Under the pieces are notes generated by a model that was given only the letters and a program-made list of their open reading frames with translations, had not been told where the DNA came from and made no database searches. A stretch of DNA of 64,000 bases from the NCBI GenBank assembly GCA_947499125.1, contig CANMMP010000004.1, forward strand, positions 186,001-250,000, in the 5' to 3' direction. Below are positions 4,039-20,202 of the stretch, piece after piece; within the stretch, counting starts at the first letter, position 1; every line of letters starts with the position of its first letter. The translations under genes were made by a program, and so were the position numbers. The stretch comes from an uncultured Pontibacter sp. Its GTDB lineage: Bacteria > Bacteroidota > Bacteroidia > Cytophagales > Hymenobacteraceae.

Positions 4039-6372
4039 TTAAAAATTGAAGTTATAGGTAAGAGATGGCACAATACCGAACAGGTACGTTTTTACAGCTT
4101 CTGTTTTGCTGCTGTCATCTTCGTTCTCGCGGAAGTAGATAGAGAAAGCGTTTTTGCGTGCATATGCATTGTAGATACTCAGCGTCCAGGAACTGGTGTA
4201 TTTCTTAAACTCATTCCTCGGCTTCTCATAGGTAGCGGAAAGGTCTAAGCGGTGGTAATCTGGCAGGCGGTAACCGTTACGCTCAGAGTAAACAGGGTAA
4301 GTTTTGCCATTATACTCGTAACGGCCGACCGGCATGGTAATAGCCCCACCTGTAGCGTAAGTCCAGTTAGTTCCCAGGTTTATACTTGGGCTAAACTGAT
4401 AGCTAAGCACCAGGTTTCCGGAGTGGCGGCGGTCATAGCGCAGCGGGTAAGACTTGTTATTATTAATTCCTGGTACTGTGCGTTCTGTTTTAGATAAAGT
4501 ATAGCTTATCCAGCCAGTCAGTAACCCCTTCTGCTTGCGCAGGTAAAATTCAGCTCCATAGGCTTCGCCGCTGCCCCGTAGTAACTCTGTCTCCAGGCGC
4601 TCGTTCAGGAATATCTCTGCGTAATCCTTATAGTCGATCTGGTTGTCCATCCACTTGTAGTATACTTCCACAGAGCCTTCAAACATGTTATCCTGAAAGT
4701 TGCGGAAGTAGCCGGCTGCTACCTGATCAGCCTTCTGTGGTTTTACATACGTGCTGCTTGGTATCCATACATCAAATGGCATTGCGGATGTAGAATTTGA
4801 CACCAGGTGCAGGTATTGCAGTGTTCGGTTGTAAGATGCCTTAATAGAGCTTGCATCATTCAGTTCATACTTGGCTGCAAAGCGTGGCTCCAACCCACCA
4901 TAGCTTTTTATCTTCTCAAATCGGCTATAGGTTACAGTATCTACCGGCGTATCAAAGTTTTCATCGTACAGGTACACTTTGCCCGGTCCCATGTTCGTAA
5001 AGCTGGATAACCTTAAGCCATAATCAAGGGTTAACCGGTCCGTGATCTGGTGCTCATTGCTCAGGTATAGCGCTCCCTCCAGCGCACTCGTAGAATTTAG
5101 TTTAAGCGCGTTAACATAAGAGAATTTGCCCGGTTTAACTTCAGCAGGCATAAAGTTATAGTAAGTCAGGTGCAGGCCAAACCGCAGCTGGTTCCTTGGA
5201 TTTAGAAAAAGAGTGTAGTCATTCTTTAATCCATAATCTTTGATGTGTGACTTCCAGGTAAATTCAGATTCTTTTTCTTTTGAGCCAAGAGCATAGTCAA
5301 AGTCGGAGAAGATAAAGGTGGTGTTGGAGAAAAGTCTGTCACTAAACAGGTGGTTCCAACGCACAGTGGCAGTGGCATTACCCCAGTTCATCTTAAAGTC
5401 GTTGGTGGCTGCTACATCGCGTCCAAAGTAACCTGACACATATAGGCGGTTCTTTTCGTTTAAAGTATAGTTGAGCTTGGTGTTCAGGTCGTAGAAGTAC
5501 AGTTTGTTATTTTTTACATTCTCATCGCTGCTCAATCCAAAGAAGATGTCGGCATACGTGCGGCGGCCTGATACTATAAAGGAACTTTTGTCTTTGATAA
5601 TGGGTGCTTCAACTGTCAGGCGGCTGGAGATAGTACCTATACCACCCGATATTTCCAAGTTTTTATTGTTCCCCTCTTTCATGCGGATGTCCAGAAGGGA
5701 AGAAAGCCTGCCGCCATGTTGGGCTGGAATTCCCCCTTTGTAGAGCTGCACGTCTTTAATAGCATCGGCATTAAATACTGAGAAAAAGCCCATCAGGTGC
5801 GAGGCATTATACACAGGTGCTTCATCCAAAAGAATTAAGTTTTGGTCCACACCGCCGCCACGCACATAGAAGCCCGATGTGCCTTCGCCGGCATTCTGCA
5901 CACCTGGCAGTAGCTGTATGGCTTTTACCAGATCTACTTCACCCAGCAGGGCAGGCATGTTTTTTATTTCGGCCACCTGCATCTTCAGGGTGCTCATCTC
6001 CATGCTTTTCACGTTGGTGTCTTCCCTACGCGATACAACTTCCACTTCTTTCAACTTAGTCACATTTTGCTCCAATTCTGTGTCAAGTTTCGTGCTGCTC
6101 TGTAGGTGCACTTGTCTGGAGATAGTTATATACCCAAGATAATTGAAGGTAAGGGTGTAGGTGCCTTTAGGTAGGGTAAGAGCGTAGTAGCCGTACTCGT
6201 TGGTAGTAACGCCAGTACCCGGTAGCTCTTGCACGCTAACCGAAGAGCCGATTAATCCTTCGCCAGTGGCTTTATCTTTTACATAACCGCTGACGGTTAC
6301 TTTCTCCTGTGCTACTGCCACAGATGTCGATAGGCAAAGCAGTAGCACTAGTAAGCTCAATAATTGTTTCAT
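4039..6372 (-). CDS. TonB-dependent receptor with carboxypeptidase-like N-terminal domain
   Basis: The start is placed at the ATG at 6372, because the signal peptide (MKQLLSLLVLLLCLSTSVAVAQ) begins there; an upstream in-frame ATG at 6417 would put a poorly hydrophilic tail before it. The 777-residue product has a carboxypeptidase-regulatory-like domain (about 22-105, VSGYVKDKATGEGLIGSSV), a plug domain (about 120-225, LPGVQNAGEGTSGFYVRGGG, LDEAPVYN) and a 22-strand-type beta barrel to the C-terminal Phe. It imports an unknown ligand across the outer membrane using TonB energy. The downstream DUF4249 lipoprotein gene marks a receptor/lipoprotein unit that differs from SusCD. Confidence 0.93.
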   Translation of the reverse strand: MKQLLSLLVLLLCLSTSVAVAQEKVTVSGYVKDKATGEGLIGSSVSVQELPGTGVTTNEYGYYALTLPKGTYTLTFNYLGYITISRQVHLQSSTKLDTELEQNVTKLKEVEVVSRREDTNVKSMEMSTLKMQVAEIKNMPALLGEVDLVKAIQLLPGVQNAGEGTSGFYVRGGGVDQNLILLDEAPVYNASHLMGFFSVFNADAIKDVQLYKGGIPAQHGGRLSSLLDIRMKEGNNKNLEISGGIGTISSRLTVEAPIIKDKSSFIVSGRRTYADIFFGLSSDENVKNNKLYFYDLNTKLNYTLNEKNRLYVSGYFGRDVAATNDFKMNWGNATATVRWNHLFSDRLFSNTTFIFSDFDYALGSKEKESEFTWKSHIKDYGLKNDYTLFLNPRNQLRFGLHLTYYNFMPAEVKPGKFSYVNALKLNSTSALEGALYLSNEHQITDRLTLDYGLRLSSFTNMGPGKVYLYDENFDTPVDTVTYSRFEKIKSYGGLEPRFAAKYELNDASSIKASYNRTLQYLHLVSNSTSAMPFDVWIPSSTYVKPQKADQVAAGYFRNFQDNMFEGSVEVYYKWMDNQIDYKDYAEIFLNERLETELLRGSGEAYGAEFYLRKQKGLLTGWISYTLSKTERTVPGINNNKSYPLRYDRRHSGNLVLSYQFSPSINLGTNWTYATGGAITMPVGRYEYNGKTYPVYSERNGYRLPDYHRLDLSATYEKPRNEFKKYTSSWTLSIYNAYARKNAFSIYFRENEDDSSKTEAVKTYLFGIVPSLTYNFNF

Positions 6373-7042
6373 GGTTTTATTTTGTAATATATATAGGAAC
6401 AATGGGATAAGCGACACAAAGGTATTTTGCTACTGGAAGTAAGACTTTATAAAATTTCCGGAAAGCTTTATAGTTTTAATAACCTCATGTCATACTTTTA
6501 GTGCCACTCTCTAAATCATAAGCAAAATTATGGTGGTATTGGTACTGCTTAAAATGAACTTTTCCGAACACCGTATTTTGTTGTATGAAAGCTGATAAAT
6601 AGGGTATGAACTGATAAATAATTGTGAGTTCACACTTTAGTTGGTTAATTATACAAGTGCCGATTCTATGATGGGTACTGTGGAAAGATCTCTTCAACTT
6701 GACTGAGAAGGGCTGAAACTAATTGATTCAGGTTTCATACTGCTTCTGCGTTTCTAGCTTCAAAAGCTTGTTTCTGATGCAGCATAAGCTAGAACCTGAG
6801 CAGTTCAAAGTATACCAACTTATCACTGGAACCCGAAATTGATCCAGGTTAACCTGCTCAGACTAACGGCGATCTTGGAAGAGATCTACTACAGGCTTAC
6901 CGGATGAAATAGAAGTGAAGAAAAGCATTGCACGCCCAACACAAGAGCTAAAGGAGTAGACACAAAAGGCATTTTGCTTTTCGCGAGTTAAGAAAAGAAC
7001 TCTTTTGTACAATAATAGGGTATAATGTTTCAGCTAATATAG
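6373..7042. other. Intergenic region of about 670 bp without a supported gene
   Basis: This stretch separates the start of the TonB receptor gene from the stop of the copper ATPase gene (both minus strand). Short open frames are present but lack codon structure or a recognisable product. On the plus strand around 6778-6895 two short open stretches (ending ITGTRN and EEIYYRLTG) look faintly protein-like and are broken by stops, so a decayed gene is possible. The receptor promoter should lie near 6380-6470, but no clear TAnnTTTG element could be fixed. Confidence 0.5.
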
Positions 7043-9169
7043 TTACTTTATCTGTCTGCGCAACAGCTGCGCATTGATAGCTACAATCACGGTGCTCAGG
7101 CTCATAAGTGCAGCACCAATGGCCGGAGAAACCATGATTCCCTGCTGATACAGTACGCCAGCAGCCAATGGAAGTGCTATGACGTTGTAGCCTGTCGCCC
7201 AGATCAGGTTTTGGATCATTTTCCGGTAAGTAGCTTTGCCGAACATGATAAGCGAGGCAATGTCCTGCGGGTTGCTGTTTACCAAAATGATGTCAGCTGT
7301 CTCGGCGGCTACGTCGGTGCCAGAACCTACCGCAATGCCTACATCGGCCTGCGCCAGGGCAGGAGCATCGTTAACACCGTCTCCGGTCATGGCCACAAAC
7401 TCTCCCTTGGCCTGCAGCTCTTTTATCTTCTCCTGTTTCTGGTGCGGCAGCACGTTGGCCAGGTAACCATCCATACCCAGTTTATCGCTCACGTTTTTGG
7501 CTACGCGCTCATTATCACCGGTCAGGAGCAGGTTCTTGATGCCGTTCTCCTTTAATACTTTTATAGCGCCTGCAGACTCCGGTCGTATCTGGTCGCGCAT
7601 GGTAATGTAGCCGGCAACCTGCTGGTCCACCAGCACATAAACCACCGTTTCTACACCTTCTTCGGCCTTGCTTTCCGGCACTTGTATGCCATACTCTTTA
7701 ATATAGTTTGGTCCGACCACTTTAACATCGCTGCCTTCCACAGTGCCTTCCAGTCCTTTGCCAGGCAAGTAATTAAAGTTTTCTGAAGCAGGTACGGCAA
7801 TTCCATCCGCTTTTACTTTACGCAGAATACCCTGCGAGATGTAGTGTTCGGAATTCTGTTCCACACCCGAAGCCAGGCGTAGCAGTTCCTGCTCAGGGAA
7901 ACGCTGGTCGAAGGAAACAACCTGTTCCACTTCATGAGAGCCTTGCGTCAGGGTGCCTGTTTTATCGAAGATGATGGTCGTGATCAGGCGGGAATTCTCA
8001 AAGGCAGTTCTGTTGCGTATCAGAAGCCCGTTATTGGCAGAAACAGCTGTGGAGATAGCTACTACCAGCGGAATGGCCAGGCCTAGTGCGTGCGGGCAGG
8101 AAATCACCATCACCGTTACCATCCGCTCCAGGGCAAAGTCCAGTTCAGCGCCCACCAACAACCAGACGGCAAAGGTGCCAAAGCCGGCGACCAGTGCCAC
8201 GTAGGTGAGCCATTTAGCTGCTTTATCGGCCAGGCGCTGCGTGTCTGATTTTGTTTTCTGTGCTTCCTGCACCAGGTTGATCACTTTGTTCAGATAGCTG
8301 TCTTTGCCGGTGCTAACCACACGCACCTGCAGCGAACCGTTCCCGTTGATGGCTCCGCCGATTACGTTATCATCTTTCCTTTTCTGCACCGGTTTGCTCT
8401 CGCCGGTCAGCATGCTCTCATTCAGGTAACTATCACCCTGTACCACCACCCCGTCAGCAGGAACTTTCTCTCCGGGCTTTACCAGGATCAGGTCACCTGG
8501 ATGCAGGTCTTCAACTTTTAGGGTTATAGTCTCTCCGTTTCTGATCACCTGCGCTTCGGATGGCATCATGCTTACCAGCAGTTCCAGGGCTTTAGATGCC
8601 CCCAGCACCGATTTCATTTCGATCCAGTGCCCCAGTAGCATGATCACGATCAGGGTGGCCAGTTCCCAGAAAAAGTCCATGCCTTCGAGCCCGAACGCAA
8701 CGGCGGTGCTATACACATAGGCCACGGAAATGGCAACACCTATCAGCGTCATCATGCCCGGTGCACCTTTCTTTACTTCTTCCACTAAACCTGTCAGGAA
8801 AGGCCAGCCACCGTAAAAATAGATGATACTGGAAAGTGCAAAAGCGATGTACATGCCATAGGGCACATCCAGCGAAAAGCCAAGAATGTGCTGCACCATC
8901 GGGCTTAGCACGATCACCGGAACCGACAGCACCAGCGATACCCAGAAACGCTTCTTAAAATCTTCAATCATCATGCGGTGATGGTCATGCCCGGCTTCAC
9001 CGTGTGCCGCGTGTCCCTGGTGTGGTGGGTGATGGCGCGTGTCGCTGTGCATGGCATCGCTATGGCCATGCAGGGTTTTTTCTTGCAGGCGCTCTTCTAT
9101 TTTTTCTGCCTTGTTTACAGACTGTTCTTTGTGGCTGTGATGTTCGTGGTGTCCGTGATCTTTATTCAT
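7043..9169 (-). CDS. copB: CopB-type copper-translocating P-type ATPase (P1B-3)
   Basis: This 708-residue heavy-metal P-type ATPase has no N-terminal HMA domain. It begins instead with a histidine-rich cytosolic tail (residues 1-66, about 20 His). The metal-binding transmembrane motif is CPH (358-360) in [13 protein letters not shown], which defines the CopB/P1B-3 class that exports copper or silver. Other motifs: TGES 255-258, phosphorylated Asp402 in DKTGTLT, and the hinge GDGVND near the C-terminus. The P1B family usually has SEHP in the nucleotide domain, whereas this protein reads SEHY. The gene stands alone on the minus strand; the copper regulator, porin operon and multicopper oxidase lie 8-17 kb away. 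Confidence 0.9.
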
Positions 9170-9293: not shown

Positions 9294-12200
9294 TTATTTC
9301 ACATATTGTTCTTTCTCCGTCTTCCTTAGTAATCCTAACCCATGAAGCGTTTGCAGCAGGCTTTCGATCTGTTGCAGGCGCTGGGGCTGCAGTGGTTTGG
9401 CTACGGGCTTAAACTGATGCAGCAGATCTGCTGCGGTGGCCGGGCGCTCGTGCAGCTGCAGGGCGCGTTGCACGGCCTGTGCCTGCTCCGAAAGCGTTTT
9501 TGGCCAGGCCAGTACTTCCTTAGCGGTGGCTTTCACAGCTTTGGATTTGGTTTCGATGCCCATATCGGTTTGCTGGGTGCCTTGCGGGTTCTGGTATTCG
9601 GGGCGGAGCCAGCGGATGTGGCCGCGTGCTTCTTCGGCAGAACGTTCCTTGTTCAGGGCCACGAGGCGCTCGAGTATTTCTTCTTCGGGCAGGTGGACGG
9701 GCCAGTTATAGGCGGCGGCTACGGCGGCATCCAGCTCCTGGTGCAGCTGCAGGAGTATACTGACCAGCCCCTGCTCGTGAGTCTTCTGTTCTTTGGGAGT
9801 AAGCACCTCGCCCGACCGCAGTTTCTCGAGCACGTTGTACATGTCGGTGATGGTGAGCGTGGGATGCTGCGCCTGCCGCTGCTTGCGGTGAGCGTCCAGC
9901 TGCTCGGCTATAGTTCGGATCTGCTCCTGCTGCGCTTCGGTGGCGGCAGGGAAGGGGAAGGTTTGGAAACAGCGGGTGCTATTATAAACAGGTCTATCTT
10001 CTAACGTGCCACCTGCAGCTAAAGCCCATGTGATATGTATCTTAGATGATAACACCCCCAAATGGAATGCATCTTCTGTAGCTATAGCTATAACTTTATG
10101 ATCTGGAAGTATACTTTCATCTAAAAACTGAAAAACTCTGTGTTTGGCGGTTTCAGGTGTAGCGACGTATCTTGACAGTCCTTTAAGTGCTGACCTTAAA
10201 CCTTTTCGCGTTTCACCAAATTCCCACCATACTTCTTTTAGTTTCTTTCTATTATTTTGATCTCTTTCTGGCTTTACTTTAAGATAAACATGTTGGTAAA
10301 GTGTAGGGAGTTGATTTCTAAGTTGGCTTTCACTAAAGCCGAATAAGTCAATCAACATCACTCCGCGAGGGGTAGCTGAGATGTCTCTACCATTCCTATA
10401 GTTTCGGATATACTTTGATAAATTAGGGTCTGAACCTAATCCGAGAGATTTAGCTTCATCTGGAGTAACTATAAAGCCACTTCCAGCAAGCATCATCCCG
10501 AAGCTGCTAACTTTTTGGTTGGATTCTAAAGGAGCTACACTTGATACATCGGCCCCTACAGATAAATCAGAATTTACATCTCCCTTTTTCTCCGAAAATT
10601 CTACACTCGCAGCGTCATCACTATTACTATAAGATTCACTTTTTATCAAATGTATACTTCCTTCGGATTTTAATCTTGTACCTACAGTCATAGCTACTCT
10701 AACTGCAGCACCATCAGCACTATCTACCCAAGGGTGGTCAGGAATGGCAAATTTTAATGTTAATGGATTCTTTGCATCTAAAAATTTCTGAACGACTCTC
10801 CTGTTGAAAGTCATAGTTATTGAATTTGTTGTAATGAAACCGAATTGTTCAGCTCTCTTAGAAAGTATAATTTCAGCAGCTTTATTCCACCAGAACATTA
10901 CGAAGTCTGCACTCTCCGGAACTATAGATTTGTAAGCTTTTCGCAACGCATCTACATAACCATCACCTAAAGCACCACGCATCGCCTTATCACCTATAAA
11001 CGGTGGGTTGCCAACTATAAAATCGGCTTCGGGCCAGGTGGCGGGTTTGGGGTCGAGGTAATCGTAAACTATAGTTCGGGCGGTTTCATCGGGCACTTCC
11101 TGTCCGGTAACCGGGTGCGGTTTGGTGCTGTGGCCGTCCCAGCGGGTAACGGGCTGGCCGTTGCTGTCGAGGCGTGGCTTGCGCTCGGAGTAGCTCAGCA
11201 CTGCGTCCTGCTGTTTTATGTTGCCGTACTCACGCAAAATAGGGTTGCTCAGGCGGGTGGCCGAACCATGCGCTCTGAAGTGCCATTGCAAATACCCGAT
11301 CCAGAGCACCACGTCGGCAATGGCCGCTGCGCGTGGGTTTACTTCCAGGCCCAGCAGCTGCGCCGGCGTTACGGTAAAGCCGCCTGTCATGTCCATCTTC
11401 AGCTGGCGCGGGAAATGCTCCAGGTACTCCAGCACTTCGCCTTCCAGCCTTTTGAGGTGCTCCAGGGTTACGTACAAAAAGTTGCCGCTTCCGCAGGCCG
11501 GGTCCAGCACGCGCACCGAGCACAAGCGCCTGTGAAACGATTCAATCTCTTTGCGGGCTCCGGCTTCTTCGCCGCTGTCTTCTAGTATAGCCGAGGCAGT
11601 ACGGGCTGCTTCCCACTCTTCGCGCAAAGGCTCAATTACGGTTGGCATTACCAGGCGCTCCACGTAGGCGCGGGGCGTGTAGTGGGCACCCAGCTTGTGG
11701 CGCTCGCGCGGCTGCAAGGCCCGCTCCAGCAAGGTACCAAAGATGGCAGGTTCCACATCGGCCCAGTCGGCTTCGGCGGCCAGTATCAGCAGGTCAAGCT
11801 GTGCTTCAGAAATAGGCAACGCTTCAGGGTCTTTAAACAGGTAGCCGTTAAACTGCGGAATGTTGGTGCGCAGGGCAGGGTCGAAGCCGCCTTTGTCCAT
11901 GCTTTGCCACAGCGCCTTCAGGGCATCGGGGAAGTAGGTGATGTTCTGGCGGTAGTCCTGCAGCAGTCTGGTAAATGAGTTTTCGGGCAACAGCTGCACG
12001 TCTTCGGCAAACATGGTAAACAGACAGCGCATCAGAAAACCCGATACCTGCTCCGGAGTATAGCCGGTCTGCTCCAAAGAGGCCGCCAGTTTTGCCAGCC
12101 GCTCGGCCAGCTGCCGGGTAACACGGGCTGCACGGCGGCTCGGGTCCAGTTCCAGCGGGTCGGTAAAGAGCAAACGCAGGCGCTCGCGCACTTCGTCGCG

Positions 12201-12764
12201 GTGCAGTTCGTCTAAGGTAATTCTATAGTTCTGCGGGTCCGGAAACGGCACATAGGTCTTTCCCTGCCGCGCAAAGTCGGCATACAGGTCAATGCAATAA
12301 CCCACATCCACCACCGCCAGGAACGGTGGCCAGCCTTCGGTGGCCGGCAGCGAGCGGGCGTAGCGCAGGGCCTGTTCCTTGGCCTTTTTCATTTCACGCT
12401 CCCAGGTGCGGGTGTCGCGGGTGGCAGTGCCGGTTTTGGTCTTTGCCCGCTCCGCGCCGAGCTGTTCCGCTTCTGTTATACCTGCCTTGTCGGAGCCCTG
12501 CTTGGCTTCCAGCACAAAGCAGTCTTTTTTGTAAAGGTCTATAAAGTTGGTGCTCGTCTTGCCTTCGCCATCATCAAACACCACGGGCCTCTCAAAAGTA
12601 TAGTTGGCTTCGTGTACCTTGTCGGTGGCCGGCATCGGTTTTTCCACGCCCAGCAGCTCACACAGCTCCGTCAAAAACAACTGGTAATTAGCACGTTCTG
12701 AAGCGCCGGAAGCTTTCCATCGGGAGATGAAGCTTTCTATAGTTGGAGTAGAAGTAGAGGGCAT
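9294..12764 (-). CDS. MmeI-like (type IIL/IIG) restriction-modification enzyme
   Basis: This 1156-residue single-chain enzyme combines a nuclease with an adenine-specific DNA methyltransferase. A PD-(D/E)xK-type nuclease site is near the N-terminus (Asp76, then EAK at 86-88 in CFVLEAKQG). A helical spacer follows. The methyltransferase core has motif [10 protein letters not shown] at about 420 and motif IV NPPF at about 586-589. A target recognition domain and a C-terminal helical region come after. Such enzymes modify one strand for self-protection, so no separate methylase is needed. About residues 587-925 (nt 9985-11005) are much more AT-rich than the flanks: a hand count of one 60-base line gave about 25% GC there, against about 60% in a methylase-core line. 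DISARM-type DrmMI is an alternative relative, but no DISARM partners are present. Confidence 0.85.
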
Positions 12765-12943: not shown

Positions 12944-13810
12944 CTACTTCAGCAACTTATAGGCATGTGCTAACCTGTGCGTAGGCGAGCTTTCTACGGC
13001 CTGCTGTATAGTTGCCACATGGGCTGCGCCATATATCACCAGTATTCGATCCTCCGGGCTTTCGGTAATGCGCTGTATGTTGCGGAAAATGCGCAGGTTA
13101 CGGTTAAACCAGGTAGCGCTGTACCAGTCTACACCCATGTAATCGTGCGTCTGTTCTTCGTAACGGAATGCTTCCCTAAAATAGTTGGCATGCCGTGTGC
13201 GTATCGTTTCCGGCTGGTTTTCATAGCGTAGCATGTCATAAACGGTGCGTGGCATTTTGCCAGATAGCTTGGCTACAGAGTCGCGGGCGATGGTGGTTTT
13301 GCGCAGGTACTTCCAGAAGTTGGCATGGCGGGCTGCAGCTTCTTCACTTATCTCCAGAGGTTTCCCGCCAGGCTTCTGGTAGCTATCCAGGTTACCCCAG
13401 GCATTGATGCAGTACACCCGCTGATGACCCAGTTGCTTTGCCAGCCTGAAGCCTAACTGGTATACTTCATCTACACCAAGCTCGTAGCGGCCATCCAGGT
13501 AGGCCTGGTACAGCGAGTCTATTCGGGGTTGTTCTTCGGGCATTATTTCTACAGCAATCTTGGTGGGCTTAAACTTAGCCATCTGTTTGGTGATCTTCTG
13601 TATGTCGCGCTGGCCTTCTTCCGAGAGCACATCCAGCTGGTCTTTTTTCTCGGTTACAATAATGTCTTTGTTGCGGTAGGTAAAATGGAAGGTTCCGAGT
13701 AGCATTACCTGTGCCTGCTCATTTTTGCCTTCCGAAGTTTTGACCTGCGCCTTAACAGGACTGCCGTTAATACTTGCTAACAGGGCTAAGGAGAGTAATA
13801 TCTTTTTCAT
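12944..13810 (-). CDS. DUF5694 secreted protein (TraB/ChaN-like)
   Basis: This 288-residue protein has a signal peptide at 1-21 (ending SPVKAQ). The mature part starts with AQVMLLGTFHFTYR and continues with a KIAVEIMPEEQPRID stretch, typical of DUF5694, a family distantly related to TraB/ChaN-like proteins. The C-terminal ILVIYGAAHVATIQQ segment supports this. The function is unknown; a periplasmic location is likely. A TTTGTCC-type tandem repeat at 13963-13990 and a -7-like element at 13931-13938 lie upstream, giving a leader of about 115 nt. A strong terminator follows. Confidence 0.82.
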   Translation of the reverse strand: MKKILLSLALLASINGSPVKAQVKTSEGKNEQAQVMLLGTFHFTYRNKDIIVTEKKDQLDVLSEEGQRDIQKITKQMAKFKPTKIAVEIMPEEQPRIDSLYQAYLDGRYELGVDEVYQLGFRLAKQLGHQRVYCINAWGNLDSYQKPGGKPLEISEEAAARHANFWKYLRKTTIARDSVAKLSGKMPRTVYDMLRYENQPETIRTRHANYFREAFRYEEQTHDYMGVDWYSATWFNRNLRIFRNIQRITESPEDRILVIYGAAHVATIQQAVESSPTHRLAHAYKLLK

Positions 13811-13930
13811 AGTGTTAGGTTGGCTTTTGTTTAGAGATGAAAATAATTAGGTGTCGGTTGCCTGTAGTTATTGTTTGCGCTGTAACTATAAGTTTATCAA
13901 AAGTTTGTTTCTGACTATAGTTGTATGTGG

Positions 13931-13990
13931 CAAAGTACGTGTAGAGGAGTTGCCGGCTCAATGGATAAACCGTTACTTGTGTTGGACAAT
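13931..13990 (-). promoter_or_regulatory. TTTGTCC-type tandem operator and promoter (copy A)
   Basis: On the minus strand the half-sites ATTGTCC (13990-13984) and TTTATCC (13969-13963) start exactly 21 bp apart. The -7-like element GTACTTTG starts 31 bp after the second half-site (13938-13931). Three other promoters in the window share both the period and the offset. The binding factor is not known; an AraC-family protein is inferred. Confidence 0.6.
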
Positions 13991-14003
13991 TGTGCAGGAA
14001 ATT

Positions 14004-15197
14004 CTAGTTCTTAAGTTTTACAGCATAGAGGTACCCGTCTGAGCTCCCGAAGTAGATGGTTTGCCCGTCGATGGCTGGCTTCGATAGTATAGAGCCCAGT
14101 TGGTGGATCTTGCTTTCTGATTGCTTCACCTCCTCCATTGTTTTGCCATAGAGCACAAAGTCTTTCCTGAACTCACCTTTTTCGTCGTACACTTCCGAGG
14201 AGTTTATCCTGCTGCTTTCCGTCTGAAACTCCCACTTCACCTCGCCGCTAGCGTGGTCAACGCCATAGAGTTTTCCGTTGAAGCAGCCGAAGTAAATAAG
14301 GTTTTCATGTGCCACTGCCGCTCCGAACACACGCATGTTAAGCGGTAATTTCCACTTCATCTGCCCATCCGTTTTGCTTAAGCAGTAGAAGGCATGGGTG
14401 TCGGAGGTGCCTACGTAGAGGTTATCCTTGTAGAGCAGGGGAGTGGCGATGATCCAGCTGCCGCGCTCCTTCATGTTCCATTTCCCTCTACCGGTTTTAA
14501 CATCCAGGGCATAAATGTTGTAGTCCCGGCTGCCAAAGTATACCACGCCATCTTGCACAAGCGCAGCTTCCTGTATTTCTCCTTTCGGAAAGTGAGTATC
14601 GCCGACTGTCCGGAACTGCCACAGTAGCTTGCCGCTCTCTGCATCCAGCGAGTAGAAGTGGCCATCGAAGCTGCCGAAGTACACCTTACCATCCTGAACA
14701 GCTGGGGAGGCATGAATGGTGTCTCCGGTCTTAAATTTCCACTTCAGCTTGCCCGTTGCATTATCCAATGCATAGAGGTGGCTGTCCCCGCTTCCCCAGT
14801 AAACGGTGTTGTGCTCTACGCTTGGAGAAGACAAGTAATAATCCCACAGGTCATAAGCTTTTTCACCTTCGGATTTAAAGACCCACATCAGTTTTCCGTT
14901 CGCTTTGTTCAGGGCATATAGGTTACCGTCAGCGCTGCCGATGTATACCAGGCTACCCTGCACAACAGGAGAGGAATATACGGCGCCACCGGTTTTGAAC
15001 TTCCATACTTCTTTGCCGCTAAATTTATTCAGCGCATAAAATGTGTGATCACCGCTTCCTGTAAATAGCAACTCTCCATCTACTAAAGGGGAGGAGTACA
15101 CTCTGCCTTTGGTTTCAAATTTCCATATAACATTCTCCTGGCCGTGCACCAGCAGTTGTGTAAGAAAGAGTAGTAGTGTTAGTATTAACCTGATCAT
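14004..15197 (-). CDS. Secreted PQQ-like beta-propeller repeat protein
   Basis: The start is set at the ATG at 15197, where a signal peptide begins (MIRLILTLLLFLTQLLVHGQ); a longer frame to 15242 adds a non-signal-like tail. The 397-residue product consists of PQQ-type propeller blades repeating the pattern SSP-V-G-YFGS-D-LYALD-TGK-W-F about every 40 residues (for example YIGSADGNLYALNKANGKL and YFGSFDGHFYSLDAESGKL). The C-terminal YAVKLKN closes the propeller. There is no quinoprotein catalytic subdomain, so it is probably a scaffold or binding protein in the periplasm, similar to BamB-like folds. The partner is unknown. It stands alone between two minus-strand genes. Confidence 0.88.
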   Translation of the reverse strand: MIRLILTLLLFLTQLLVHGQENVIWKFETKGRVYSSPLVDGELLFTGSGDHTFYALNKFSGKEVWKFKTGGAVYSSPVVQGSLVYIGSADGNLYALNKANGKLMWVFKSEGEKAYDLWDYYLSSPSVEHNTVYWGSGDSHLYALDNATGKLKWKFKTGDTIHASPAVQDGKVYFGSFDGHFYSLDAESGKLLWQFRTVGDTHFPKGEIQEAALVQDGVVYFGSRDYNIYALDVKTGRGKWNMKERGSWIIATPLLYKDNLYVGTSDTHAFYCLSKTDGQMKWKLPLNMRVFGAAVAHENLIYFGCFNGKLYGVDHASGEVKWEFQTESSRINSSEVYDEKGEFRKDFVLYGKTMEEVKQSESKIHQLGSILSKPAIDGQTIYFGSSDGYLYAVKLKN

Positions 15198-15282
15198 AGT
15201 TTTACTTTTTGTGTTGTAGGAATTAAGTAGCCAATAATACACTTTTATCTCAAGCAGCTACAGCAGAGCATTTTACTTTAAC

Positions 15283-15435
15283 CTAAGATAACAGTGCCGT
15301 CTCAACTGCCTGTGTGGCATGTATGGTGGATGTATCGAAGAGCACCACATCCCTGTCCTTTGGCCTGACAAGAAGCGGAACCTCGGTACAGCCCAGGATC
15401 ACGCCTTCGGCATCATTGGCTATCAGATTGTCTTG
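15283..15435 (-). pseudogene. C-terminal remnant of an aspartate/glutamate racemase
   Basis: Read on the minus strand, 50 codons from 15435 to a stop at 15283-15285 encode DNLIANDAEGVILGCTEVPL followed by LLVRPKDRDVVLFDTSTIHA and an Ala-rich end. GCTE (the second catalytic Cys) and DTSTIHA are hallmarks of the C-terminus of Asp/Glu racemases. The frame has a stop codon directly upstream, and the first three-quarters of the gene is absent, replaced by the tail of the next gene upstream. It is a dead fragment left by a deletion. Confidence 0.8.
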
Positions 15436-15463
15436 TTAGGTTTTATGTGTAGGTGATGATGTG

Positions 15464-16762
15464 TTACTTCTTTTTTGAAAGTATGTAGTTGCCACTGCTG
15501 CTGTTCATAGTCAGCGTGTAAGACTCGTTCAGTTCAAGAGTCCAGCCGTCTCCTGAGATTTTATTTCCGTTAAGTTCTGTCGGCAATGTGAGGGAGATCT
15601 TTTTCCAGTCCGGGCTCATCAGGGCACCATTTTCTACTGTCAGGATACCCCAGTTGTCGGTGACACGGATGGTAGGATAAACGGTGCCTTTGTCTTCTAA
15701 GGGCATCATGTTACGGGGGTCGAAGGAGACATTCATCTTCTCAAAGTATAGCTCCACGTGCGGCTGCTCCACAAATTTGCTTTTGTACTCGGCTACAAGT
15801 TTTCTTTTCTCTACTGCCCGTTTTGTTTCTTCTGCCATTATTTGCCTGCCGTTATAGTCCGCTGCTATTCGTTCGGCTTCATGCCTCAGATCTTGTGGTA
15901 CCTCTATTTCGAAAGCATCTATAAAATAGCTGGTGAGATCAGTGTCGGGGGAGATTTTCTTGTTCCAGTACTTGTTGCGGCTGCTAAGCAAATAACCGTA
16001 AACTGGGATGGTGTGGTAGGCAAAGGAGCGCACAAACGTCGGGTTTTGCTGAAAGGAATTGATGCTGTTCTCAAAATGCACAACCGCCTGCTTTCTGCTT
16101 CTTTCGCTGATCACAAAACCCGTATACTCTGCCAGTCCCTCGTTAAGCTCCAGCAGGTTTTCTGTGGAGTCAGCATCCGGGTAAAGCTGGTGGCGATACT
16201 TTCGGAAGGTAAAGGCATGGGTGAGGTATTGCTTTCGCTCCCGATCGGGTGATGCCTGTAGTGCCTTTTTGAGTGCTTCCAGCTCCAGCCGTAAATAGAT
16301 TCGCCCGTTCTTCTCATCCAGGTGGTTGTTGGCCGCGTTATGGAGCGCAAAGCCCAAGGACGGCTGCGTTTTATGGAACAGCTCATGAGCTAGTAAATTG
16401 ATCCGCTCGTGTTTATCCTGAGGCAGTGGAAGCAGGAGCATGGCCCAGTGTTTACCGCCCCAATGCAGGGCTGTGTTGGCTACGTTTACTTGGGGTGGCA
16501 GGTAACCTGTAAACCGGTCTGCGCTGCCGGTTAAAATTCCTGCTGTGTCGGCTTCGTTCGCTACTATTTTTCTGGTCTGTGGGTCCACGATCAGGATGGA
16601 AGTATATAGGTCCATGTTCCAGAGCTGCCTGTGCTTTTTTGTGGCGGTCTCTATCTCCTTAAAATAAGTTGTAAAGCTGATGGTGTCTGGTTTTGCGGAT
16701 TGGGTGCGCCCTGTATTTGCAAGTTGCAGCAGCAGGAGCAACAGTAGGTAGGACTTTTTCAT
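15464..16762 (-). CDS. Secreted putative zinc metallopeptidase (HELFH)
   Basis: The start is set at the ATG at 16762, where a signal peptide begins (MKKSYLLLLLLLQLANTGRTQ). The 432-residue product carries HELFH at 126-130 (INLLAHELFHKTQ). About 80 residues later is NEGLAEYTG, whose glutamate could be the third zinc ligand, a gluzincin-like arrangement. The rest is unfamiliar, and the C-terminus looks like a small beta domain. It is probably a periplasmic or surface peptidase, inferred only from the motif pair. A TTTGTCC-type tandem site lies upstream (16898-16957), shared in a divergent region with the HMA-AraC regulator gene. Confidence 0.65.
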   Translation of the reverse strand: MKKSYLLLLLLLQLANTGRTQSAKPDTISFTTYFKEIETATKKHRQLWNMDLYTSILIVDPQTRKIVANEADTAGILTGSADRFTGYLPPQVNVANTALHWGGKHWAMLLLPLPQDKHERINLLAHELFHKTQPSLGFALHNAANNHLDEKNGRIYLRLELEALKKALQASPDRERKQYLTHAFTFRKYRHQLYPDADSTENLLELNEGLAEYTGFVISERSRKQAVVHFENSINSFQQNPTFVRSFAYHTIPVYGYLLSSRNKYWNKKISPDTDLTSYFIDAFEIEVPQDLRHEAERIAADYNGRQIMAEETKRAVEKRKLVAEYKSKFVEQPHVELYFEKMNVSFDPRNMMPLEDKGTVYPTIRVTDNWGILTVENGALMSPDWKKISLTLPTELNGNKISGDGWTLELNESYTLTMNSSSGNYILSKKK

Positions 16763-18482: not shown

Positions 18483-19583
18483 TTATATCGCAGTGAAGTC
18501 TACGTCCGTATTCTCTATGTATTTGGGGTTATTATAGTCAATTTGCCAGAGATTTTTAATTTTAGCTAGTTCTTCATCAGAAATCAAATCTAATCCGCTT
18601 GCTTCCTGTGCATAAAGCAACTTCTCTAAAATGACTCTTCTCCCTTCTAATGTTATTGGTCCTAATCCTATTTGACCATTTCTTCTGTAGCTACACCTGT
18701 ATTTTTTTATGTCTCTAAATTCAATCAACCAGTTTCTGAAATTATGGAGTGGCTCTAATATATCATATCCATTCTTTACCATACTATCTACTGATTTATC
18801 TTTCCTAACTACAGTGCAAGTCCAGCAACCAAACCTTCCTTTCCCACATGGAGTACCTTTAGTTTCTCTAAAAACTGGACATTCAGCTCCAGCATCCTTA
18901 TATAAAGTGCCTATAACTTTGTAATTTATAGATTCGGGTATCGGATTAAACTTAATTGTACTCCAAATATCCTTTACTGTATAATTAAGTACAGGACTAA
19001 AAATCTTCACCTTACTGGAAGTCTTTTGATTTAAGTAATAATCTACATTAGTAGAGTGTTTGGAAATTATTTTATCCCTCTCCGCACTTTCACCATTTCG
19101 GACACCAAGTAAGACTATTGCATTTCTATTTTTGTCTATAATAGTATTGATTGGATTTATTCTAAGTCTGTCAGTGCACCATCTAAAGATGTTTGTTGGA
19201 GGAGGGTAGCCTCGTCCAATTACCTTCACGAAATATCTATCGTCAAGCTTAGGTTTAGCAACTTTAATTATAAAAGGTAGATTGTACTTAAACGACTCTT
19301 TTTCTAAGTGGTCGAGAGTTTGATAAACGTAATCTGTTATAGTTGGAATCTCAACGCCGGTATCGCAATAAACAATAGTTACAGGTTTATGATATTCCTT
19401 TAATGTTAGTAAAGCATTAAATGTCAATACTAATAAAGCAGATGAATCTTTACCTCCACTATAACCTATATACCAAGGAGTATCGTCTCTTTGATATTCC
19501 TTTACAATTAGTTGCATAGCAACTCTATCTTTTTCTGAGACAGAAATTAGGCAACTACTGCAAAATTTGGTGGATTCTATCAT
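18483..19583 (-). CDS. DndC-like PAPS-reductase-family sulfurtransferase
   Basis: This 366-residue PP-loop enzyme has the ATP-pyrophosphatase motif SGGKDSS at 42-48, RWCTDRL at 134-140 and LLGVRNGESAERD at 158-170. A four-cysteine set (C235, C246, C253, C256), with GRFGCWTCTVVRKDKS, is characteristic of DndC, the sulfur-mobilising subunit of DNA phosphorothioation. An extra CSSC pair lies at 8-11. DndC is usually about 500 residues, so this is a short version, and no dndB, D or E is present. It overlaps by 29 bp the upstream gene for a four-helix membrane protein, which implies translational coupling. The pair is AT-rich relative to its surroundings and looks acquired. A defence role is inferred. 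Confidence 0.85.
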   Translation of the reverse strand: MIESTKFCSSCLISVSEKDRVAMQLIVKEYQRDDTPWYIGYSGGKDSSALLVLTFNALLTLKEYHKPVTIVYCDTGVEIPTITDYVYQTLDHLEKESFKYNLPFIIKVAKPKLDDRYFVKVIGRGYPPPTNIFRWCTDRLRINPINTIIDKNRNAIVLLGVRNGESAERDKIISKHSTNVDYYLNQKTSSKVKIFSPVLNYTVKDIWSTIKFNPIPESINYKVIGTLYKDAGAECPVFRETKGTPCGKGRFGCWTCTVVRKDKSVDSMVKNGYDILEPLHNFRNWLIEFRDIKKYRCSYRRNGQIGLGPITLEGRRVILEKLLYAQEASGLDLISDEELAKIKNLWQIDYNNPKYIENTDVDFTAI

Positions 19584-20202
19584 TTACATCATTAACATGG
19601 TGTGTCTCTATATACTCTATCTGCTCATTTGATAATGATATATGCTTAAAAAAAGCAAGTATGTGCAAGCCAAAAGAAATAAAACCTGAAACGATTAGCA
19701 AAAAGCCTCCTATTAATAGTTCCTGCTTAACATCAGTGTAAATTAGAATCGAAAGAAAAAATACTATTGAAAATATTAGTGAGATAATAAAATAATCAGC
19801 TGTTGTCGTCCAAATCAAGCCATTAAAATATACGTTCTTGCTTTTCTTTGAAAGAGACTCGTCATTATCTACTATGTTATAAAAGATATTCTTTAACCTA
19901 TTTTTCTGATAAAGAAATTGCCTTTGCTCATTAGTTAGGTCATGTGTATACAATTTAATTATATGATTTTTAATATTTAAATCTATTTTTTTATGAGAGT
20001 AATTTGTAATGAGATGTCTTACATCTGTTAAATAGTAAAATACACCAATTACTAATGCAATAAGAAAGGGAATCGAATATTCTGAAAAATCTACTTGCTT
20101 GAATTCCTTCTCTGTAATTATAGAAATGAAATACAGTGAGATTAATACAGTAATAATTCCAGGTATGATTAATCGTAATTTTTTAAGAGTTTCTTGCTCC
20201 AT
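19555..20202 (-). CDS. Four-helix membrane protein coupled to the DndC-like gene
   Basis: This 215-residue protein is unrecognised. Predicted helices are at about 10-29, 42-58, 135-156 and 161-186, giving two membrane hairpins around a soluble, Lys/Asn-rich central segment (60-130) with a TNEQRQFLYQK stretch. A short C-terminal tail is rich in His/Asn. It is the first gene of a two-gene operon: its last 29 bp overlap the start of the DndC-like gene. Low GC and poor codon match to the flanks suggest horizontal acquisition. Membrane proteins with few helices are common effectors in bacterial defence pairs, so a membrane-damaging or sensing role is possible. That is inference only. Confidence 0.75.
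   Translation of the reverse strand: MEQETLKKLRLIIPGIITVLISLYFISIITEKEFKQVDFSEYSIPFLIALVIGVFYYLTDVRHLITNYSHKKIDLNIKNHIIKLYTHDLTNEQRQFLYQKNRLKNIFYNIVDNDESLSKKSKNVYFNGLIWTTTADYFIISLIFSIVFFLSILIYTDVKQELLIGGFLLIVSGFISFGLHILAFFKHISLSNEQIEYIETHHVNDVNDRIHQILQ

Follow-up and report, generated by a model that had tools for sequence, protein, structure and literature searches.

A Type IIL enzyme gene with a step in base composition

The stretch analysed here, 64,000 nucleotides of contig CANMMP010000004.1 of an uncultured Pontibacter sp. (hereafter the window, always at its full length), encodes on the minus strand, at 9294-12764, a single-chain restriction-modification enzyme of 1156 amino acids (aa) in whose GC-rich gene about 1 kb of AT-rich DNA is embedded. 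The enzyme is of Type IIL (MmeI-like) and is an ordinary member of this known kind. It contains four Pfam domains above cut-off (MmeI_N, MmeI_hel, MmeI_Mtase and MmeI_TRD), matches the PADLOC model REase_MTase_IIG PDLC03627 with 1563.8 bits and matches the MmeI structure 5hr4 with an E-value of 6.8e-51. The same structure is the top hit among solved structures in a Foldseek search with the predicted fold (E 8.1e-32; 22-23% identity in the fold alignment). The AlphaFold2 model, based on 29 sequences, has a mean predicted local distance difference test score of 73 and a predicted template modelling score of 0.56, with the recognition and C-terminal domains being the most confident parts.

All features of the gene are, like the gene itself, read from the minus strand. 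The GC-rich core (aa 1-583; 11016-12764; GC 58.5%) comprises the nuclease, the helical spacer and the first half of the methylase. The N-terminal PD-(D/E)XK nuclease of the Type IIL family is recognizable by the MmeI_N match and by the motif D76...E86-A-K88 (12501-12539), in which D76, E86 and K88 are invariant in the 29-row alignment A1; MmeI, for comparison, has D70...E80-M-K82 (PMC4833311). The motif order is that of a gamma-class adenine methylase, with motif I, DPACGSG (aa 421-427; 11484-11504), preceding motif IV, NPPF (aa 586-589; 10998-11009), within the MmeI_Mtase domain; N586, P587, P588 and F589 are invariant in A1, and NPPF forms the upstream edge of the AT-rich block. Immediately beyond it, a hypervariable triplet (aa 592-594; 10983-10991; DKA in this enzyme) is flanked by the conserved G591 and M595-R596. 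The AT-rich block itself consists of part A, the second half of the methylase fold (aa 592-720; 10605-10991; GC 38.0%), and part B, the target recognition domain (aa 721-925; 9990-10604; GC 39.2%; MmeI_TRD at aa 745-940). The downstream edge lies at the FQTFPFP motif (aa 933-939; 9948-9968), and is followed by the GC-rich C-terminal region (aa 950-1156; 9297-9917; GC 58.9%); the model shows helices from residue 943 onward, after the recognition domain in the same chain. Starting as it does at NPPF, the block extends beyond the recognition domain and also covers the latter half of the methylase fold.

The low-GC block of about 1 kb that the original prediction described at 9985-11005 is confirmed, GC being 38.7% there against about 59% on either side (58.9% at 9297-9917 and 58.5% at 11016-12764), and the two hand counts given with it, 25.0% at 10621-10680 and 60.0% at 11401-11460, are exact. 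A two-breakpoint scan of the GC content at third codon positions (GC3) places the block at codons 581-928 (9981-11024), with a GC3 of 0.26 inside and 0.70 outside and a log-likelihood gain of 95.5. Among the window's other 47 open reading frames (ORFs) with 150 codons or more, the best internal segment yields a gain of at most 12.4, and the step at 9985-11005 has no comparable counterpart in any other tested ORF. Relative to its flanks, the block is the strongest 1-kb dip in the 64 kb (0.221; the next elsewhere is 0.132); it is not the lowest-GC 1 kb of the window, lying below 89.9% of the 1,021-base intervals. Whole ORFs of the window have a mean GC3 of 0.476 (standard deviation (SD) 0.097; maximum 0.67). 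The core, at 0.70, exceeds every one of them, the block, at 0.26, is level with the lowest, and each half of the step stands out in this stretch.

On one side, the larger neighbour of the gene encodes an E1-E2 ATPase; on the opposite side lie those for a DUF5694 protein and a beta-propeller protein. No PADLOC defence model matches the five flanking proteins compared (4042-9169 and 12947-16762; smaller ORFs left aside), so that the enzyme appears to be solitary. Assignment to DISARM is rejected, with 255.1 bits for DrmMI against 1563.8 for the Type IIG model and no PADLOC match among the five flanking proteins, and so is assignment to BREX, PglX models giving 21.8-25.7 bits against curated cut-offs of 400-900. 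The genome (3.98 Mb) holds a single match to the gene, and the closest relatives with a named record are from Pontibacter.

Elsewhere in the window, two adjacent minus-strand ORFs at 18483-20202 have the lowest GC3 (0.27 and 0.26). The first is DndC-like (PADLOC DndC, 300 bits; Pfam PAPS reductase domain) and the second has no Pfam or PADLOC match; they are possibly an acquired, defence-related pair.

Distribution and exchange of the AT-rich block

The step was followed through 87 distinct aligned genes of at least 1000 codons from genome collections, the window's own gene (the query) included. Genes with identical last 900 residues were merged; ORFs shorter than 1000 aa, that is, partial or broken relatives, fall outside the 87, and a few genes inside are cut by the end of a contig or locus. 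One gene, L078, has no host estimate, hence some counts of 86. The Pontibacter-type set comprises 23 genes from Pontibacter, Rufibacter and Adhaeribacter with more than 85% core identity to the query (86-95% over aa 1-583 in the other 22), and the Hymenobacter set comprises 56 genes, most of them from a genus taken to be Hymenobacter. Broken or partial copies also occur among the relatives; L020 of Pontibacter sp. HSC-36F09, for instance, is frameshifted and was not included in the first alignment, and G144, G170 and G185 contain partial matches.

The GC3 of the recognition domain (aa 721-925) lies below that of the core in all 87 genes, the drop being 9-62 points with a median of 42, and the dip is also present in 6 genes beyond them (L181, L184, L186, L187, L191 and L194). 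The original prediction attributed the dip to a swap from an AT-rich donor and named a dip common to all family members as evidence to the contrary; the latter is what is found among the relatives examined (87/87), and the donor swap is left without support as the cause. As the dip is family-wide, a single AT-rich import is rejected as its explanation. In the Pontibacter-type set, the mean GC3 values are 73 for the core, 32 for part A, 24 for part B (SD 3.6) and 74 for aa 950-1060, with 56 in neighbouring ORFs; the upstream edge falls at codons 579-597, adjoining NPPF, in 16 of the 23 genes and the downstream edge at codons 919-938, adjoining FQTFPFP, in 20. In the Hymenobacter set, the upstream edge is at 570-600 in 17 genes, at 680-725, near the start of the recognition domain, in 16 and elsewhere in 23, and 35 genes have their downstream edge at 915-940. 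The GC3 of part A spans the range from core-like to block-like in this set, and the fitted segment is GC-poorer than the remainder in 55 of 56. Low-GC hosts show the dip too (L180, L181, L184, L189 and L190; flank GC 33-40%), with a core GC3 of 44-60 and 21-31 in the recognition domain. Of the 21 extra loci from the Algoriphagus and G500 families, 7 contain no ORF that reaches 950 codons, and several duplicate members of the 87.

In 8 relatives on plasmids of Pseudomonadota, the drop is shallower, 6-28 points (at most 10 in 6 of them), with a recognition-domain GC3 of 53-81; 130 plasmid records match the block, of which 10 were measured. The plasmid-borne relatives L169-L177 (Pseudomonadota and one cyanobacterium) lie in some cases near toxin-antitoxin or recombinase genes. 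In a second MmeI-like subfamily, one of 7 loci (L166) has a strong dip, and the other six have an N-core GC3 of 20-34 and a drop of at most 10 points. L166, with about 32% core identity, has GC3 values of 53, 50, 22 and 53 in zones N, A, B and C, so that its dip is confined to the recognition domain.

The history of the block is decoupled from that of the flanking arms, and block exchange is well supported. Over the 253 pairs of Pontibacter-type genes, the Spearman correlation of pairwise identity is 0.65 between the N-core (aa 1-583) and the C-core (aa 950-1060), but -0.04 between the N-core and part A, 0.12 between the N-core and part B, and 0.04 between parts A and B. For the 59 pairs that reach a core identity of 92%, part B identity spans 36-96% (median 50), and for the 50 pairs with less than 88% it spans 36-82% (median 49); because it is not graded with core distance, exchange rather than drift is indicated. 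The query and L002 share 95% identity in the core and 58% in part B, whereas the query and L097 of the Hymenobacter set share 56% and 65%, respectively. Paralogues within one genome have similar cores (89-95%) and dissimilar recognition domains (44-48%) in all three genomes inspected. The alignment with related enzymes for which the original prediction called bears out its proposal that the recognition block is exchanged: the ends of the step coincide with loss of identity, and identity is not uniform across the block among the relatives.

Phylogenetic analysis agrees. In the N-core tree, the 23 Pontibacter-type genes lie on one side of a branch with a Shimodaira-Hasegawa-like approximate likelihood ratio test (SH-aLRT) support of 91, whereas for part B the approximately unbiased (AU) test rejects them as one clade (log-likelihood 233 lower; p-AU 0.000178). 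The part B tree requires 11 changes for this set, at least 5 of which are forced by starred branches. In it, Rufibacter hautae clusters with Chitinophagaceae, and two Pontibacter cluster with the alphaproteobacterium Neomegalonema, at SH-aLRT values of 100 and 93, respectively. Blocks retained in common may be highly conserved in sequence: L004 and L006 are 99% identical in part A and 96% in part B at the amino acid level, at fourfold-site divergences of 0.31 and 0.29. Such conservation, despite differences at about 30% of the fourfold sites, points to replacement combined with purifying selection, not to steady divergence.

The gene of Adhaeribacter aquaticus (L032) is a natural recombinant over codons ~400-1060, visible by both composition and identity. 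Its first 400 and last 96 codons have a GC3 of 40-50, like the neighbouring genes (43), whereas codons 401-583 and 940-1000 reach 71-74, with the AT-rich block in between; identity to other Pontibacter-type genes is 69-81% in codons 1-400 and 78-91% in the GC-rich arms. The unit that moved was therefore not AT-rich throughout but consisted of GC-rich arms with the AT-rich block already inside.

In MmeI, bases are contacted from the recognition domain and by K487, S488 and K489, which lie three to five residues past NPPF and contact base pairs 2 and 4 (PMC4833311). Residues 592-594 have the same offset from NPPF in the alignment to 5hr4, and so the upstream edge lies just ahead of the first predicted specificity residues. 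The triplet takes eight different forms in the 23 Pontibacter-type genes, between the conserved G591 and M595-R596. Sharing a triplet goes with greater similarity of the recognition domains, the difference being reached in 3 of 2000 permutations in the Pontibacter-type set and in none of 2000 between the sets, and core identity has no such link (574 and 1670 of 2000, respectively). Within the Hymenobacter set, the triplet is linked to both recognition-domain and core identity (0 and 2 of 2000 permutations). Different blocks would be expected to read different target sequences.

A parallel pattern is found in Type I systems. Among 40 hsdS loci of the host family, one per genome, chosen as the best-scoring of 150 matching genomes (20 from the genus of the window and 20 from genus g4), the GC3 of HsdS is below that of the neighbouring genes in 39, L205 being the exception. 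A motif rule recognizes HsdM in 21 of these loci, the other 19 being compared with neighbours only; in 11 of 11 loci (means 36 against 71; neighbours 50) and in 10 of 10 (49 against 81; neighbours 72), HsdS has a lower GC3 than HsdM, and in 21/21 HsdM surpasses the neighbouring genes. From 60 listed of 210 plasmid records, 13 hsdM loci were picked for taxonomic spread (Pseudomonadota, Actinomycetota, Cyanobacteriota and Bacillota). With L254 (no annotated hsdS) and L246 (hsdS assumed) set aside, all 11 remaining loci have a lower GC3 in HsdS than in HsdM; HsdS is also lower than the neighbours in 10 of them, and HsdM is higher than the neighbours in 8. In Escherichia coli K-12, GC3 is 32 for hsdS, 66 for hsdM and 64 for hsdR. 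AT-rich hsdS next to GC-rich hsdM is thus seen in five phyla, Bacteroidota included. Many of the HsdS genes that were viewed segment by segment appear to have GC3 troughs on either side of a middle part with higher GC, which would follow if AT-richness belongs to the recognition domains and not to the conserved centre. A search of the host family for PglX as a third architecture gave no match, but the control genomes gave none either.

Candidate causes of the AT-richness

Amino acid composition is excluded as the cause, because invariant and highly variable columns of part B have the same low GC content at fourfold sites, 17% (23% in columns of intermediate variability; the core has 80% and 68%). 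Fast evolution is excluded as well, the variable columns of the C-terminal region remaining GC-rich (76-78%). In the Pontibacter-type set, part B does not follow the GC3 of the host (rho -0.04), in contrast to the core (rho 0.61). Over all genes with a host estimate, the N-core exceeds the neighbouring genes in GC3 in 82 of 86. Pairs that share a block were retained if parts A and B were at least 68% identical and the divergence of block and core agreed within 0.15. In four Pontibacter-type pairs with related blocks, both members have a fourfold-site GC of 0.14-0.35 although the synonymous divergence of their blocks is 0.29-0.60; A-T differences are frequent (17/41 in L004/L006 and 27/54 in L012/L032). 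Unless both members imported their blocks separately, this AT-richness is persistence and not a fading import.

Altogether, these observations are best accommodated, with a probability of roughly 0.8, by an exchangeable specificity block that is a family-wide feature and whose AT-richness is a standing property, not the trace of one import. Several results weigh against this reading. Over 86 genes, block GC3 does track host GC3 (rho 0.48), as partial amelioration would give; three Hymenobacter-set blocks (L100, L154 and L155) have a core-like fourfold-site GC of 0.83-0.90; and the pair L124/L129, in which 32 of 41 differences are AT/GC, is seemingly ameliorating, which fits import followed by amelioration in that set. 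Nor is block identity a strict all-or-none matter, with 8 of the 253 Pontibacter-type pairs falling at 65-96%, and parts A and B do not consistently move together, so that the block is not always one unit. No excess similarity of the arms is found in 6 block-sharing Pontibacter-type pairs, and 62 such pairs of the Hymenobacter set show a weak upstream excess (reached in 64 of 2000 permutations) and none downstream. Systematic hitch-hiking of the arms with the block is accordingly rejected for the Pontibacter-type pairs and for the downstream side in the Hymenobacter set, with a weak upstream signal there; as no general excess was found, L032 stands as a single clear tract. Finally, the change of specificity is inferred.

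Under the reading of a standing, exchangeable block, the following scheme can be envisaged. In a Type IIL enzyme, the nuclease and the methylase share one recognition domain, so that a change of this domain would redirect both of them at once. The stretch that begins just past NPPF and ends at FQTFPFP would constitute the exchangeable block that holds the predicted base-contacting residues; its alleles would be replaced, most probably through homologous recombination within the conserved GC-rich arms, and would be preserved by purifying selection while retained. Rare blocks would lack homologous partners and might therefore escape a putative GC-biased gene conversion that pushes the framework above the GC of the host. 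GC-biased gene conversion in bacteria is a debated matter. This shortage of partners is the most coherent of the proposed causes of the AT-richness; that it holds specificity DNA AT-rich in place across phyla and architectures, with the framework driven above host GC, can be put forward only tentatively.

For the AT side, two accounts are nearly equal. The first, plausible although somewhat short of an even chance, is that only the shared framework, for which homologous partners are always at hand, undergoes GC-biased gene conversion and is raised above host GC, the unpartnered block being left near an AT-rich mutational equilibrium. Across bacteria, genes with more intragenic recombination are GC-richer (PMC4450053). 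The framework above and the specificity DNA below the host value occur together, with the high-GC and low-GC anomalies meeting at the borders of identity loss, and the many A-T differences in related Pontibacter-type blocks point the same way, as does the higher GC3 of Hymenobacter-set blocks with close relatives (rho 0.50, p 1e-4), which amelioration predicts likewise. Less easily accommodated are the fourfold-site GC of the block, about 0.23, below the intergenic GC of the window (0.384), the lack of the latter correlation in the Pontibacter-type set (rho -0.03), the small drop in 6 of the 8 Pseudomonadota relatives, and the plasmid Type I loci, in which only 8 of 11 HsdM genes exceed their neighbours.

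The second account, a tentative one, invokes repeated import from a hidden AT-rich pool, either unsampled bacteria or phages, with blocks being replaced before they ameliorate. The homogeneous, host-independent GC3 of part B in the Pontibacter-type set would follow from such a pool, and so would the Hymenobacter set, where blocks vary widely, some being host-like and some seemingly ameliorating, and part A ranges from core-like to block-like. The searches made among relatives, phages and viruses found no AT-rich source, only 2 phage records at 22-24% identity and 2 viral contigs at 53% and 42% (one scan). Moreover, the four Pontibacter-type pairs are AT-rich in both members at considerable divergence, the pattern recurs across phyla, and a framework above its neighbours (N-core 82/86, HsdM 21/21) has no place in a donor account; of the two, GC-biased gene conversion alone accounts for the latter.

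Direct selection for AT-richness, for instance through slow translation, low expression or recombination, would explain the consistency of the dip, its similar edges and its presence in two unrelated architectures. It is unlikely, given that homologous recognition domains can be GC-rich, with GC3 values of 63-81 in 7 of the 8 Pseudomonadota plasmid genes and 62-74 in several Hymenobacter-set genes, so that AT-richness is not required by the domain.

Even less probable is a single exchange from an AT-rich donor, in which the dip would be an unameliorated trace in the query gene. The sharp edges at codons 581 and 928, the independence of block GC3 from the host in the Pontibacter-type set and the occurrence of the nearest blocks both inside and outside the genus are all compatible with such an event. 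However, the dip recurs in every aligned gene, often with the same edges, and in the 6 further genes, low-GC hosts included, and in no measured relative of the subfamily does the core match an AT-rich block in AT-richness. Close relatives are present in 3 of 395 genomes of the class sample (the genome of the window included), in 2 of 245 of the Algoriphagus family (one already known) and in 14 of 222 of the G500 family. Fast divergence in place without exchange, to which the variability of recognition domains in such enzymes would lend itself, is hardly credible in view of the near-identical part B medians at high and low core identity, the shared block that is 96-99% identical at a fourfold-site divergence of 0.3, the strong tree conflict (p-AU 0.000178) and the GC-richness of variable C-terminal columns.

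Implications and relation to known systems

Wide diversification of specificity in the MmeI family is known (PMC4833311), and so are restriction-modification genes that differ from the host in base composition (PMC12707154); in one paper, small GC differences of whole systems are taken as recent acquisition (PMC5198162). A statement that recognition-domain DNA is AT-rich relative to the framework was not encountered in the literature searched, which mostly excludes subscription papers; older work on E. coli hsd may mention it. The compositional step is a regularity of the family and apparently beyond.

For annotators, this means that a low-GC stretch inside a restriction enzyme gene should not be taken for a single recent import before relatives are checked, because all aligned relatives and nearly all sampled Type I hsdS genes show the dip. 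Should such steps coincide with specificity borders in general, base composition could by itself show how far the unit of exchange extends in enzymes yet to be studied; in the query, a unit that starts at NPPF takes in methylase residues whose counterparts touch DNA in MmeI. The block boundaries also suggest where new specificities might be built. If missing partners are the cause, the pairs of specificity and framework DNA already in databases would allow GC-biased gene conversion in bacteria to be tested inside single genes. In that case, intragenic GC steps would bear the mark of negative frequency-dependent selection and would indicate specificity borders in uncharacterized enzymes.

Among known systems, the closest is MmeI itself (5hr4), with which the query shares the order of nuclease, helical spacer, gamma-class methylase and recognition domain, the NPPF motif IV and the use of one recognition domain for both activities. 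It differs in size (1156 against 919 aa) and in sequence, identity in the fold alignment being 22-23%. Enzymes of this family methylate adenine within their target and cut about 20 nt from it. Type I HsdS resembles the query in that AT-rich specificity DNA lies beside a GC-rich methylase and exchangeable recognition domains lie between conserved regions (PMC3874165); unlike the single domain of the fused query enzyme, HsdS is a separate subunit with two recognition domains. In the domain movement (DoMo) of Helicobacter pylori, recombination at conserved flanks replaces recognition domains (PMC3077401, PMC3983042), and replacement by recombination at conserved flanking sequence is the common element here. 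DoMo, however, involves two domain positions with repeats in one gene, whereas the query contains a single recognition domain and its genome a single match; DoMo within the query gene is therefore rejected, there being no further copy with which to exchange. The hypothesis of GC-biased gene conversion (PMC4450053) likewise predicts a GC-rich recombining framework, but concerns whole genes, whereas the query displays the step inside one gene, at the borders of specificity.

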